Below, piece by piece: positions 41,946-49,471 of a DNA stretch of 64,000 bases (positions are counted from its first letter, which is position 1; every line of letters begins with the position of its first letter). Below the pieces are notes generated by a model. It was not told the DNA's origin and searched no databases. It worked only from the letters and a program-made list of their open reading frames with translations. Origin of the DNA: Legionella beliardensis (GTDB lineage: Bacteria; Pseudomonadota; Gammaproteobacteria; Legionellales; Legionellaceae). A program made the position numbers and the translations under genes. The stretch lies in the NCBI RefSeq assembly GCF_900452395.1, contig NZ_UGNV01000001.1, forward strand, positions 1,141,501 through 1,205,500, written 5' to 3'.

Positions 41946-43163
41946 TTAGATATTAAGGCTAATTTCAGAATCATCTTCGTCAGATACATCCTCTTTAAAC
42001 TCTTGTTGGCTTATTTGCAATTTTTCTTTTAAATTAGTTATAAGTTTCTGAGTAGATGTTTGCTTTGAGCTAAATTCAGGTTTTAATATATTTCTTTGCT
42101 GAGCAATAATTTCGCTAAGTGGAGCGCCTTGGTTGGTTTTTTTGCTCTTAAAGTGAATACTGTTTTCCCAATTACTAATGACATCAAGAAAATTAGTTTG
42201 AGCCAAATCCGCATTAATTATATCTTGCTTTAATTTTTCCAGCGCAAAAATTTTACGTTCAGGGCTACTAAGAAAGAAATTGCGTTTACTTTTTTTAAGT
42301 TGCGTAATTTCTGCATCAATTTGAGCAATTATAGGAAAAGGGTCGGCACTTAAATGTTTTTTAGTTTCATTATTATAGTAATTATAATTATGTGTATTTG
42401 TATTTTTTTTATCTACGTGAATTGTAGAAATAGGTATGTCTGGGTTATTTTCAGCTTTATATTTTTCGCAACTTTCAATTACTTTCCGATTATCATCAGC
42501 AATAATGATACTACTAACCCATTCAGGTTTATTAGCCATAAAGGCTTCTAGCAGCAGGCCTTTTGTATGACTGTATCCTTCATGAATTGCTCGTTGATCA
42601 CCTAGTAGCTTTGCTACATCTCCTCTAGGGTTCATGTTGTGAGACAAATGAAACCCTGGTTCTTTTTTAGGGTCTGCTATATCAGAATTATAAACATCTA
42701 GAGCTTCTTCAAATGCGCTGCCAAGTCTGATTTGGTCCAAAGGCCTTGGATTTTTTAAAGCGTCACGATAGGCACTAAATTCTTCAGCAATTTCTTCATC
42801 ATCCAGAATTGAATCAAGAGCTTCTCCTGCTAAGTTTTTAATTGCACCAAATCTAGGAGAATATAATGCTTCTGTAAAATTATATGCTTGTTCACCCTCT
42901 TCCTGCCTGGCTTCCTTATCATCTAACTTTGTCCATACTAAATCTAAGGGCGTAATAAACCCATGTACCTTAAACCCACTGTTTTCGAGCTGCTTTTTTA
43001 ATCGTAATCTTTCCTCTAGAGATGAGCTTTTAAAAGTCATATCCGTAAATAAATATATATCATTTACATGATTATCTTTTAAACTTTCAAGTAATGCGGT
43101 ATTTAGTTCATTTTCTATTAAAAGGGTATCGTCTATATCAAGCAGGGCAACTGGGCGGGCCAT
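41946..43163 (-). CDS. HAD-superfamily-like protein, candidate effector
   Basis: VALLDIDDTLLIE near residue 8 is HAD motif I (D10xD12xT), and YLFTDMTFKS resembles motif II. WVSSIIIADDNRKVIESC (about 215-230) is the motif IV region with paired Asp. These make a phosphatase or phosphotransferase plausible. The last 130 residues are helical with coiled-coil character and end in an acidic run (KEDVSDEDDSEISLNI) like Dot/Icm signals. 405 residues, no signal peptide. AGGA precedes the ATG at 43163. Substrate unknown. Confidence 0.6.
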   Translation of the reverse strand: MARPVALLDIDDTLLIENELNTALLESLKDNHVNDIYLFTDMTFKSSSLEERLRLKKQLENSGFKVHGFITPLDLVWTKLDDKEARQEEGEQAYNFTEALYSPRFGAIKNLAGEALDSILDDEEIAEEFSAYRDALKNPRPLDQIRLGSAFEEALDVYNSDIADPKKEPGFHLSHNMNPRGDVAKLLGDQRAIHEGYSHTKGLLLEAFMANKPEWVSSIIIADDNRKVIESCEKYKAENNPDIPISTIHVDKKNTNTHNYNYYNNETKKHLSADPFPIIAQIDAEITQLKKSKRNFFLSSPERKIFALEKLKQDIINADLAQTNFLDVISNWENSIHFKSKKTNQGAPLSEIIAQQRNILKPEFSSKQTSTQKLITNLKEKLQISQQEFKEDVSDEDDSEISLNI

Positions 43164-45533: not shown

Positions 45534-46301
45534 TTAAATTAAGTTAATTGGTAAAAAGCGCTCAATGGTCATTTCTATTAGCTCAGCTTTAGATGAGGCG
45601 CCCATTTTTATACGTATATTAATTAAATATTCTTCAACCGTTCGATGTGAAATGCCAAGTTCACGGGCAATACGTTTGGCAGTATAGCCTTTAATTGTTA
45701 ATTGTAAGCATTCCATCTCTCGCCTTGATAAATAGCTTTGCTTTATATTAAAACTTGAGAGAGGTTGGCCTTGTTTTGCTGAAAGCTGCATGGCATTAAA
45801 CAGGCCAAGCTCAATAACTTCTGATAAAGAGCTGGCTAGCTTATGTTTGCCAAGCACGATAGAGCAACCAAATACACCAATTATGGTTGTTCCTGTGTCA
45901 TACCAGGGGCATTTTATAGTTAAAAAATCTAAGCCTAAGCCATCCTTGCGAAGGTTTTCTTCTTCAAAAACCTTAACGGTCTGGGAGTCGATAACATCTA
46001 AACAATTATCAATTAAATTTTTTGCACTATTTTGTTCAGAAACGTCAAAAAGTGATTTTCCAATCGATTCTTCCACAGAGTCAAACCCACAAATTAAAGC
46101 GCATTCCTCATTCATGAGCTCAGTTTTACCTTGAAGATTAAGGAAATAAAAATTAAAAGGTAATGCTAAAACGCTAGCAACAGTGTGAGTTGTTGCATAT
46201 AAGCCTTCTAGAGATGAAAGAGGGGATGGTGATTGGCTTATAAGCTTAATGCCATTTTGGAATCGATAAATTCGCGAATTAAGATCAATTGTTTTCCACA
46301 T
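45534..46301 (-). CDS. LuxR-family transcriptional regulator with PAS-like N-terminus
   Basis: Residues about 190-250 are a LuxR HTH: LSRREMECLQLTIKGYTAKRIARELGISHRTVEEYLINIR. The N-terminal 150 residues look like a PAS sensor (NFYFLNLQGKTELMNEECALICGF), common in Legionella LuxR regulators (LpnR type) that lack AHL-binding domains. No kinase partner is adjacent. It is divergent from the fusion gene at 46449 (147 bases) and could regulate it. Confidence 0.82.
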   Translation of the reverse strand: MWKTIDLNSRIYRFQNGIKLISQSPSPLSSLEGLYATTHTVASVLALPFNFYFLNLQGKTELMNEECALICGFDSVEESIGKSLFDVSEQNSAKNLIDNCLDVIDSQTVKVFEEENLRKDGLGLDFLTIKCPWYDTGTTIIGVFGCSIVLGKHKLASSLSEVIELGLFNAMQLSAKQGQPLSSFNIKQSYLSRREMECLQLTIKGYTAKRIARELGISHRTVEEYLINIRIKMGASSKAELIEMTIERFLPINLI

Positions 46302-46448
46302 AAATTACTTTACTCGATGTTGTCTACAGTTAGTTAAAAACACTAGGATTAAATACTTTTAAAAACCTTAACCCCGTAGCTAATACGGGAACCTAAGTTA
46401 CTAAAAATAAGTAAGATGTACGAGAAGTTTTTAGTTTAGGGAGTTAAC

Positions 46449-48911
46449 ATGAAGATTATTTTATTAGCTGGTGCACCAGGTAGCGGTAAAAGTACACAAG
46501 GGTCAGCTTTAATGGCTATGAATCTTAAGTTCAAACATTTAGCTTTAGGTGAAGTTGTTCGCGGTTATTTAGACTCTCCAAACCATCCAATCACTAAAAA
46601 CTATAAAGAATTTATAAGTCAGGGTAACTTATTGCCTGATGATGTCATTAAACAAATTTTACAAGAAGAGCTAGCAAAAATTTCTGACAAAAACAGTATT
46701 GTTTTGTTGGATGGGTATCCGCGTACTTTAGCGCAATATGATGATTTCAAAAAAGAGTGGGGTAAGCCGGATGGATTAATTCATTTAGATGTGAATAAAG
46801 AAACGCTTAATCAACGGCTGTTGGAACGCCCTAATTCTCGCTTAGATGATAATCAAGAAGCCATTAAACGACGTTTAAGTTTTTATCAAGATACAACAAA
46901 ACCTTTGCTTAATCATATTAAGCAAGAGTTAGGCAAAAATGCTATTGTAGTTAATACAGATGAGTCAGTTCGAGCTACTAGTTTTTATCTCTATGCTTCT
47001 TTGCAACGATTAAGTTCTATTCATGATGTCTTACAAAAAGAACAGGTATTGCTTAAGCAAGAAGAAGAACCTAGCGCACAGATAAAACCGATTGGGTTTA
47101 CCTCGATGCTTGTACAATGCTGGAAGACGGGTATTGAATATAGCTCTATTAGGGCAATTCAAGCCGATTACCAAACAAAAAACTTTTCATTTTCCCTATT
47201 TAATAAAAGGGTTGTTTATCTTGAAACACCAGCTGAAGTTAAAAAGGTGTTAGAAGGAAATAGTCATTTAGGTTATGTCTATAAACATTTCTCAACTGCT
47301 GCCGGGTTAAAATATGATTTTCTAGCCACTGATCCTAACAGTGAAAATTCTTTTAAAGATGAACACAATGAAGTGAACTATTGGAAGTTGATTCATCAAG
47401 GTCTCGGAAAAACAATTAAAGATGATGGCAAGCGTATCGAGTATTTAATTGATAAACAGTTAATGCAAACGTTTTTTGCGGAGAAAAAATTTATACTAGA
47501 TACTACCTTTGATAATTTTTTTTGTAGTTTTTGGGCAGAATATCTCTTTGGCAAAGCGTGTTCATTAGAAAGATATCAAGAGAATAGAAATCAATTATTA
47601 GGGGCTATGAAACAATGCTTTTATAATAATTATTATAAAAGCATTGACCCAACCGGTTTAACATCGTGGCTATATCAAAATCCCGTAAGTAATCAATTAC
47701 AAGGTGTTAAAAAAACATTGCAAGCCTTTATCGCCAAGGCAGGCTCAGATGCAATGGTTAGTCGTTTTGCAGAAAATCTAAGGGAATTGAATGTTAAAGA
47801 AAATCTTGATTTAAACGAAGAAAGAATCAAAGAAATTGTTGCTGATTGCACGTTTGATTTGATACTTGAACCTGATTTTCTTGAAAATGTCATGTATGAG
47901 GCCTTAGCATTTGCAGTGAAGGAAAATGCTGATCTGCATGATTCTTTAGTACGGAATAAAGTATATAAACAAGGACTAGAACAAGGCTACCTCTTTCCTT
48001 TCCGCACGCGCGTGCTGGATAAATCTGTCGTTCTAGACGATGGTAGCGAACTTCCAGCAGGTAGTATGGTCTGTTTGAATTTAAAACAAGCAGGTGTTTA
48101 TCATTCCGCTGGTGCGAGACGTTGTGTAGGCCAAGCTTACACCTATTTTTTTAGAGAACACTTTTTTAATTGTATTGCGCCAATTGACTTTAAAGTAAAG
48201 AAAGTAAGTGAACCTTTAGAAAGACAAGCCAGTAATGAAAATGTTCCTAATTCGCCTGAGCGCTACCAGGTTAGTTGGCGCTTGAAAAGGAACGAAGCAA
48301 TGCGACACATGCCACATCATCATTATAAGGGAAATAAGTTTTTTGATGTTTTAAGCTTACATCAAAATACTAATTTAAACGCATTAATGGTCAAGCAGCT
48401 GACGCTAAAAATTAATCGATATATAGAGAGAAATAATCTTGATTGGCAAGATGTTGTTATGGCCGCGCCAGAAGTTCGTGGTCTGCCAATAGCTGCGCAA
48501 GTTGCAGGGAGTTTGCAGCTACCTTTATATACTATACGTAAAAAAGGTGGTTATAAAATGGCTGAAGATGCGCTTTTTTTTGCGAGCTTTAAGAAAGGTT
48601 ATGGTGATTCTGATACCGTTGAATTACCTATTGAAAAAATTAAAGCGCTAGCGGGTAAAAAAGTTATTTTTCTTGATGATGGCATAGCTAGTGGTGGTAG
48701 TGCTAAGGCGTGTATAAAATTGCTTGAAAAGCAGGTTGAGGGTAAGGAACCAGCGAAAGTGGCGTTAGTATTAGCATTATTGCAACATGATTATGTAAAA
48801 AGCCCAGAAAAATTTTCTGAGCATCGATTGGTTAAAACTTTATTTGATTGTCGTGCGGAAATGCCAAACCAAGAGCTTAAGGATGAGGTTCAGGCACTAA
48901 ATTTACCTTAA
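46449..48911 (+). CDS. three-part fusion: adenylate-kinase-like, cytochrome-P450-like, phosphoribosyltransferase-like
   Basis: Residues 1-175 match nucleoside monophosphate kinases: P-loop GAPGSGKS (8-15), DGYPRT (88-93), and DDNQEAIKRRLSFYQDTTKPLL with a short LID. Residues about 215-590 look like a P450: EYLFGKACSLERY, DGSELPAGSMV, and the heme-ligand loop HSAGARRCVG (552-561, Cys559). The K-helix ExxR, expected near E484, reads EALA, so its Arg is missing. Residues about 640-800 match type I phosphoribosyltransferases: PEVRGLPIAAQVAG, then the PRPP loop VIFLDDGIASGGSAKA (739-754), as in adenine phosphoribosyltransferase. No stop or shift separates the parts and GGGAG precedes the ATG. AMP could link the outer domains. 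I know of no described protein with this layout; function is unknown. Confidence 0.7.
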   Translation: MKIILLAGAPGSGKSTQGSALMAMNLKFKHLALGEVVRGYLDSPNHPITKNYKEFISQGNLLPDDVIKQILQEELAKISDKNSIVLLDGYPRTLAQYDDFKKEWGKPDGLIHLDVNKETLNQRLLERPNSRLDDNQEAIKRRLSFYQDTTKPLLNHIKQELGKNAIVVNTDESVRATSFYLYASLQRLSSIHDVLQKEQVLLKQEEEPSAQIKPIGFTSMLVQCWKTGIEYSSIRAIQADYQTKNFSFSLFNKRVVYLETPAEVKKVLEGNSHLGYVYKHFSTAAGLKYDFLATDPNSENSFKDEHNEVNYWKLIHQGLGKTIKDDGKRIEYLIDKQLMQTFFAEKKFILDTTFDNFFCSFWAEYLFGKACSLERYQENRNQLLGAMKQCFYNNYYKSIDPTGLTSWLYQNPVSNQLQGVKKTLQAFIAKAGSDAMVSRFAENLRELNVKENLDLNEERIKEIVADCTFDLILEPDFLENVMYEALAFAVKENADLHDSLVRNKVYKQGLEQGYLFPFRTRVLDKSVVLDDGSELPAGSMVCLNLKQAGVYHSAGARRCVGQAYTYFFREHFFNCIAPIDFKVKKVSEPLERQASNENVPNSPERYQVSWRLKRNEAMRHMPHHHYKGNKFFDVLSLHQNTNLNALMVKQLTLKINRYIERNNLDWQDVVMAAPEVRGLPIAAQVAGSLQLPLYTIRKKGGYKMAEDALFFASFKKGYGDSDTVELPIEKIKALAGKKVIFLDDGIASGGSAKACIKLLEKQVEGKEPAKVALVLALLQHDYVKSPEKFSEHRLVKTLFDCRAEMPNQELKDEVQALNLP

Positions 48912-48925
48912 CTTAAAAGGCCAGG

Positions 48926-49471
48926 TTAGGACTGATGATTAGTGTTGATTCGGTAGAGAACATGGTTAGATAAGGGATGGTCAGTGGCGAGTTTTGGGTG
49001 AGCAAATGAACCAGTAAGATCATGCGTCATACCAAGTCTTTCCATGACTTTTCGTGAACGAAAGTTATCTGGAACAGTAAATGCTACTATTTCATTGAGT
49101 CCTAGGCGATTAAAAGCATAATCTAATACAGCTAATGCGCCTTCGGTTGCATAGCCAAATCCCCAATACTGCGAGCCTAAGCGCCAGCCAATTTCAGTGG
49201 CTGGCGAAAAATGCGTGGGCTTATCAAAATAATTAAGGCCTATAAATCCTATTAGTTCACCGGTATCTTGTAGCTCTGCGGCCCATAGCATATAACCGCG
49301 GTCTTGCAGCTGTTGATTTTGATAGTGCATAAAATCATCGACCTGCTCTTTAGTTAAAGAACCAGGCAAAAACTCAAGGACTTGGCTGTCTTGATTAATT
49401 TGCCAATAAGGTACTCGATCATTTGCTTGCCAAGGTCTAAGAATTAATCTAGCAGTTTTAATTGAATGCAT
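48926..49471 (-). CDS. RimJ/RimL-type GNAT acetyltransferase
   Basis: 181 residues with the RimJ/RimL pattern: TARLILRPWQANDRVPYWQIN at the start, ELIGFIGLNYF, then EIGWRLGSQYWGFGYATEGALAVLDYAFNRLGL (acetyl-CoA binding Q/RxxGxG/A) and the FRSRKVMERLGM end. Acetylates amines or protein N-termini; target unknown. Convergent with the fusion gene, 14 bases apart. Confidence 0.87.
   Translation of the reverse strand: MHSIKTARLILRPWQANDRVPYWQINQDSQVLEFLPGSLTKEQVDDFMHYQNQQLQDRGYMLWAAELQDTGELIGFIGLNYFDKPTHFSPATEIGWRLGSQYWGFGYATEGALAVLDYAFNRLGLNEIVAFTVPDNFRSRKVMERLGMTHDLTGSFAHPKLATDHPLSNHVLYRINTNHQS

Follow-up and report, generated by a model that had tools for sequence, protein, structure and literature searches.

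A protein joining adenylate kinase, P450-like and phosphoribosyltransferase-like domains beside a PAS-LuxR regulator in Legionella beliardensis and other Legionellaceae

We analysed a window of 64,000 nucleotides from Legionella beliardensis (contig NZ_UGNV01000001.1, positions 1,141,501 to 1,205,500), whose genome comprises 3.54 Mb in six contigs. The gene of interest (46449..48911, forward strand) is a single ATG-to-stop frame of 820 residues in which three domains are joined: a short-lid adenylate kinase domain (approximately residues 1-182, 46449..46994), a P450-like domain (approximately residues 210-612, 47076..48284) and a domain resembling adenine phosphoribosyltransferase (APRT; approximately residues 613-800, 48285..48848). 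Upstream lies a divergent gene for a PAS-LuxR regulator of 255 residues (45534..46301, reverse strand). Between the two, 59 bases before the ATG of the fusion, stands the palindrome CCCGTAGCTAATACGGG (46373..46389), a putative operator and the sole exact site of its kind in this genome. The interval 46100-49100 holds six promoter-like sites, against 9.3 expected, and four terminator-like sites, against 1.7 expected.

An earlier sequence-only reading of the window had proposed such a three-domain protein, and the frame, the Pfam matches and the profile evidence uphold it. The motifs on which it was based all lie in the 820-residue frame: GAPGSGKS and DGYPRT of the kinase, the heme-cysteine loop HSAGARRCVG with Cys559 (48102..48131), and the loop VIFLDDGIASGGSA (48663..48704), which would bind 5-phosphoribosyl-1-pyrophosphate (PRPP). 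In an alignment of seven fusion proteins, with identities of 36-67% to that of the window, Gly11, Gly13, Lys14, Asp88-Thr93, Gly555, Arg557, Cys559, Gly561, Asp743, Asp744 and Ala747-Gly749 are invariant. As the same reading had anticipated, the layout recurs in other Legionellaceae: whole-length matches were found in 10 of 143 genomes of the family (G000, which is the window's own, G129, G107, G104, G106, G086, G073, G108, G069 and G037). The frame is unbroken in seven of the ten. The six unbroken copies outside the window share 34-68% identity with the window protein, the extremes being G129 (68%) and G037, from another genus (34-37%). Among the matches listed for the remaining 133 genomes, 126 genomes match the kinase part only; seven have no match.

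A scan of GTDB contigs, covering close relatives only, returned six Legionella loci. The relatives by name are L. massiliensis, L. gresilensis, L. quinlivanii, L. shakespearei, L. rowbothamii and one metagenome-assembled Legionella. Besides the window's own genome, 369 genomes of the class yielded two weak hits for the central domain, one at 2.1e-4 (with two stops) and one at 1.6e-3, and 398 genomes of the phylum, searched at a strict limit of 1e-25, gave three matches, all to the kinase only. The viral contigs gave no match, and a plasmid search returned 196 records below 60% identity, the best 20 of which match the kinase part only. A weak match in G142 (8.3e-5) was considered as a distant relative and set aside, its frame being an ATPase by eye. 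The sequence-only reading knew of no described protein with this layout, and searches of the open-access literature, covering the best-ranked entries of the longer lists, gave none. No known kind of protein met in that literature unites a phosphoribosyltransferase with a nucleotide kinase and a P450-like domain.

The kinase domain is matched by Pfam ADK over residues 6-159 (1.4e-30; 106.9 bits, cut-off 26.8), and the NCBIfam subfamily model TIGR01351 scores 113.4 bits on it, below its cut-off of 168. Its best solved relative in a profile search is 3umf (6.4e-34). Lys14, Arg38, Arg92, Gln96, Arg123, Arg131 and Arg142 are invariant in the seven-row alignment; all of these except Gln96 we take to be P-loop, lid and adenosine monophosphate (AMP)-site residues of adenylate kinase. 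The genome of the window holds a second short adenylate-kinase-like gene (L002, G000:C1:238923-239387), 42% identical to the kinase domain of the fusion, and similar matches with 34-41% identity to that domain occur in G103, G104, G106, G107, G108 and G114.

The C-terminal domain is matched by the APRT equivalog model TIGR01090 over residues 616-788 (9.6e-16) and by Pfam Pribosyltran over residues 653-762 (2.4e-8). Its PRPP loop keeps Asp743 and Asp744, and the T of the ATG element is replaced by S. The last approximately 20 residues of the fusion are variable in the seven-row alignment. APRT is rare in Legionellaceae: at 1e-6, TIGR01090 matched 11 of 134 family genomes and left 123 without a match. 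Nine of the 11 are fusion genomes, matched within the fusion (in G069 also within the partner protein described below); the other two are G128, with a full APRT, and G142, with a fragment at a contig end. The sequence-only reading had suggested that the outer domains could act in sequence. The TIGR01090 score of 58.3 bits, far below the cut-off of 185.85, speaks against a simple relay from adenine through AMP to adenosine diphosphate (ADP), as does the glycine that replaces a motif glutamate (see below).

For the central domain, Pfam p450 (PF00067) matches neither the window protein at E ≤ 1 nor five of its relatives at E ≤ 10, and its matches in this genome at E ≤ 1 lie at two other loci only; of the Pfam assignments expected from the sequence-only reading, ADK and Pribosyltran were thus obtained and p450 was not. 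When PDB sequences were searched with the central alignment, four matched, and no P450 is among them (the best was an orotate phosphoribosyltransferase, 0.028). We assembled a reference set of 31 Legionellaceae P450 loci (L053, L054, L102-L130), of which 27 passed a filter on length and cysteine loop and four failed. A profile-profile comparison of the central domain with P450s scored 82 (E 3.6e-10), against best control scores of 22.1 for 40 column shuffles, 24.4 for the reversed alignment and 19.2 for nine other protein families of two to five rows each. The predicted structure has a P450 fold. Hence, on the controlled profile comparison and the predicted fold, the central domain is a P450 relative. 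The sequence-only reading had staked this assignment on a profile or structural match, and both were found; structure prediction bore it out for the fold, not for the cysteine loop (see below).

Cys559 aligns to a cysteine, and Arg521 to an arginine, in all 27 reference P450s. The GxRxCxG loop, as HSxGxRxCxG, is present in nine of nine fusion rows. This loop, Arg521, Trp312 and His316 are invariant across the nine rows, down to 32% identity. Pro475 aligns to the proline that follows the I-helix (23/27 P450s) and Glu484 to a glutamate (26/27). The strict PROSITE-like loop pattern, which we take to start with Phe, fits 17 of the 27 P450s and none of the nine fusion rows, where His stands instead. 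Where dS was measurable, in two pairs, the ratio of nonsynonymous to synonymous substitution rates (dN/dS) of the central domain is 0.12-0.14. In the pair G104/G106, dN/dS is 0.29 for the kinase, 0.12 for the central domain and 0.11 for the phosphoribosyltransferase.

Three elements are missing. ExxR, found upstream of the cysteine loop in all 27 P450s, is absent from all nine fusion rows; the position aligned to its Glu and Arg reads Gln508-Gly-Leu-Glu511 (47970..47981). A loose pattern for the I-helix oxygen-activation motif fits 16 of 27 P450s and no fusion row, and across the meander 26 residues of the reference P450 are aligned to two in the fusion. With all three missing, the central domain is, as judged from its sequence, no standard monooxygenase. 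The sequence-only reading was right in suspecting a modified P450 and misplaced the evidence: the EALA that it took for the K-helix ExxR spans residues 484-487, before the K-helix. EPDFL was considered as a CYP152-like I-helix site and dropped, because the profile alignment places Pro475 after the I-helix and Glu484 on the conserved glutamate. Two ordinary P450s are encoded elsewhere in this genome (L053 1423-2703 and L054 1411-2619), the latter adjoining a frame of 258 residues that by eye resembles a TauD-type dioxygenase.

The divergent regulator carries a LuxR-type helix-turn-helix (GerE, PF00196, 3.4e-17; 62.2 bits, cut-off 23.5) and a weak PAS_9 match under the cut-off (21.0 bits against 27). 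Such a regulator adjoins the fusion in six of the ten fusion genomes (G000, G129, G086, G104, G106 and, split over two frames, G037); adjacency in G073 is beyond judgement because the contig starts 613 bases upstream. With relatives in 35 of 143 genomes at 1e-15, the regulator is more widespread than the fusion. The pattern CCCGTA-N5-TACGGG stands 58-77 bases before the ATG of the fusion in eight of the ten genomes, among them G107, G108, G069 and G073 despite no adjacent regulator being seen there. G106 has a site with two mismatches directly before the fusion and G104 one with three (counted by hand). Control loci totalling 77.6 kb contained no exact site, no one-mismatch site and one two-mismatch site. 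Exact sites also occur in eight genomes without the fusion (G045, G068, G072, G082, G089, G092, G097 and G122), in five of which one adjoins such a regulator (G045, G068, G082, G089 and G092). G086 and G129 hold a second exact site elsewhere, that of G129 lying 83 bases before another such regulator.

Exact palindromes at L142, L148 and L152 (G072, G097 and G122) have no such regulator within 1.5 kb by eye, and extra exact sites lie at G086:C41:96740 and G068:C1:3824149. Regulator copies in G123, G117 and G121 adjoin genes for QueF (7-cyano-7-deazaguanine reductase; L094 526-1368, L095 2350-3183, L096 578-1375), with one-mismatch palindromes at two of the three loci. Similar proteins were seen by eye in G120, G131 and G138; all are in one genus and so perhaps reflect one event. 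We scanned ten hand-picked neighbour proteins of other regulator copies, the QueF ones having been picked for their QueF likeness, of which three are QueF, one matches DUF218 and one weakly a leucine-rich repeat, two have matches under cut-off and three belong to no family; none of the ten is a further fusion of this kind. In the window, 41946-43163 (reverse strand) encodes a protein of 405 residues that by eye starts in a HAD-like manner and matches DUF2608 weakly, below cut-off; it has 75 residues in common (38.7%) with a 565-residue protein beside the fusion of L. massiliensis.

In G104 and G106 a protein of 727-728 residues with PRPP-synthetase-like parts, here called the partner, is encoded beyond the regulator, and two-mismatch palindrome sites precede it. 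The partner occurs in seven of 143 genomes (G104, G106, G107, G108, G069, G045 and G032). It is adjoined by the regulator in all seven and preceded by a palindrome-like site in six (one exact, one with one mismatch, four with two); the seventh gene starts at a contig edge. The partners of G069 and G045 are longer, with an ITP/XTP-phosphatase-like domain, to which that of G069 adds an APRT-like domain. In G037 a remnant of 57 residues of the partner (L062 12901-13068) lies between the two-frame regulator and the fusion.

Our preferred reading, offered tentatively and with somewhat less than even confidence, is a small dedicated regulon with the fusion as its core enzyme, which would make or modify a purine nucleotide and include a heme-thiolate step. 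It is based on sequence: the three domains, their conservation, the linkage to the regulator, and the palindromes before fusion and partner. The partner, or a housekeeping enzyme where the partner is absent, would supply PRPP or a PRPP-like sugar diphosphate, which the APRT-like domain would couple to a base, either adenine or one related to it. The P450-like domain would bind heme via Cys559 and catalyse a reaction on the nucleotide or its base that needs none of the usual oxygen-activation elements: an oxidation, a rearrangement or a peroxide-driven step. The kinase might then phosphorylate the monophosphate product or recycle AMP, and the PAS-LuxR protein would bind the palindrome and switch the genes together. 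We are more doubtful of the extended version, an undescribed purine-nucleotide natural product or signal of Legionellaceae made by a heme-thiolate domain set between phosphoribosyltransferase and kinase, with a PRPP-like sugar from a co-regulated synthetase and a PAS-LuxR switch at its own palindrome. Related regulators adjoin QueF and other genes, so several purine cassettes of this sort may be under the control of the regulator family. Should the domain bind heme, it would show how little of the P450 plan suffices. If these amoeba-grown bacteria make a purine product, it would bear on adenine-type signal exchange with their hosts, and palindrome and regulator together offer a sequence-based route to the remaining pathway.

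Several findings weigh against the regulon reading. Three of the ten fusion copies have broken frames, each different (L005, L036 and L037): a single TAG interrupts G107 at codon 290, and the frame changes near residues 102-117 in G108 and G069. The L. quinlivanii-like G107 and G108 carry different lesions, yet dN/dS between their pieces is still low, approximately 0.06 downstream (514 codons) and 0.21 in the kinase (100 codons). Their copies may have begun to decay recently, may contain sequence errors in place of true lesions, or may work as separate pieces. The regulator does not adjoin the fusion in G107, G108 and G069, and G104 and G106 lack an exact palindrome. The exact pattern occurs in 16 of 143 genomes and its backwards-read control in 14, so the presence of the palindrome proves little by itself and its position is what counts. 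The partner matches TIGR01251 (2.5e-20) with 72.6 bits, below the cut-off of 113. It was not found at 1e-8 in five of the ten fusion genomes, including that of the window, and occurs in two genomes without the fusion. The co-occurrence of the fusion in five of seven partner genomes (Fisher 1.1e-5) ignores phylogeny. The predicted local distance difference test (pLDDT) score of the model is below 50 at the cysteine loop, which puts the geometry of the heme pocket beyond judgement. Finally, Gly stands at the Glu position of the LEYG motif in all five aligned fusion rows (KGYG or KGYR); this Glu is kept both in the stand-alone G128 APRT, which reads LEYG, and in the APRT-like domain of the G069 partner, which reads TEYS. 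As we presume it to be catalytic, the base or the chemistry may differ in the fusion.

The missing P450 elements also fit a plainer account, which we consider rather unlikely: the P450-like domain would be a non-enzymatic module, sensing heme, gas or ligand or serving structure, that tunes a bifunctional purine salvage enzyme (APRT plus AMP kinase) with ordinary AMP and ADP as output. The two activities would work in sequence, and the fusion could supply adenine salvage, being the sole APRT-profile match at 1e-6 in eight of nine matching fusion genomes (the ninth, G069, has fusion and partner). However, the invariant cysteine loop, Arg521, Trp312 and His316, together with the low dN/dS of the central domain, exceed the needs of a scaffold. 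The 123 family genomes without an APRT-profile match, and the glycine in the APRT motif, also tell against it.

Export of the protein to the amoebal host, where it would act on host nucleotides, with the regulator family controlling host-directed genes, is quite unlikely. The variable C-terminus might be a secretion tail, and the three scanned neighbours of other regulator copies without a Pfam family might be host-directed, but the partner genes look metabolic, and the three QueF neighbours, picked as they were for that likeness, belong to deazapurine metabolism. A role in handling cytokinin-type N6-substituted adenines, the bacterium's own or amoebal, appears very unlikely. The APRT-like domain would capture the base, the P450-like domain alter the side chain and the kinase phosphorylate the product. 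In plants, cytokinin nucleotides are substrates of a P450, and cytokinin bases of APRT. Dictyostelium discoideum produces N6-isopentenyladenine, discadenine and cis-zeatin (PMC6920973), and angustmycin A has been termed a nucleoside cytokinin (PMC8599513). Yet no dedicated adenylate isopentenyltransferase was seen in the ten fusion genomes: all ten pass the PF01745 cut-off only over the first 53-60 of 233 positions, and the two of the ten matching proteins that were checked are both MiaA, a tRNA enzyme. These results weaken the cytokinin comparison, which the sequence-only reading had itself called speculative, and demote the cytokinin pathway as a leading explanation, although MiaA could be a source of tRNA-derived cytokinin. 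That the frame is an artefact of assembly or annotation joining separate genes, a risk that the sequence-only reading had named and that the three interrupted copies might suggest, is refuted by the seven unbroken copies, and the 820-residue layout is real with near certainty.

Among known systems, the angustmycin pathway may offer the nearest worked-out logic for fusion and partner, which co-occur in five genomes with palindrome-like sites before both; the genome of the window lacks the partner. There, the pyrophosphokinase AgmC carries a PRPP-synthetase domain, and the APRT-like AgmE, an adenine phosphoallulosyltransferase, uses a non-ribose sugar (PMC8599513). The likeness covers this PRPP-synthetase-like and APRT-like pair only: the six enzymes named in that paper include no P450 and no kinase fusion. 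The term P450 is likewise absent from the main text of one review on purine N-nucleoside antibiotics. PimM-type PAS-LuxR regulators of Streptomyces also combine PAS with a LuxR helix-turn-helix and a palindromic promoter site, which in their case is CTVGGGAWWTCCCBAG (PMC9774167), in contrast to the putative CCCGTA-N5-TACGGG here; the present regulator is from Legionellaceae, with a PAS match that stays under the cut-off. With the P450 superfamily the fusion shares the fold, the GxRxCxG heme-cysteine loop and the conserved arginine at Arg521, and it differs in lacking the Pfam p450 match, ExxR, the I-helix motif and the meander. CYP157 of Streptomyces, likewise without the arginine of ExxR and in genetic linkage with other genes, retains the motif glutamate (PMC3599690), whereas the fusion has neither residue and is joined to two enzymes. 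P450 domains are fused to others in P450 BM3 (PMC7261786), in the peroxidase-P450 CYP5619 (PMC5919972) and, according to PDB entry titles, in CYP51-ferredoxin. The P450 fusions met in these sources add redox or peroxidase domains, whereas this one sits between two domains that act on nucleotides.

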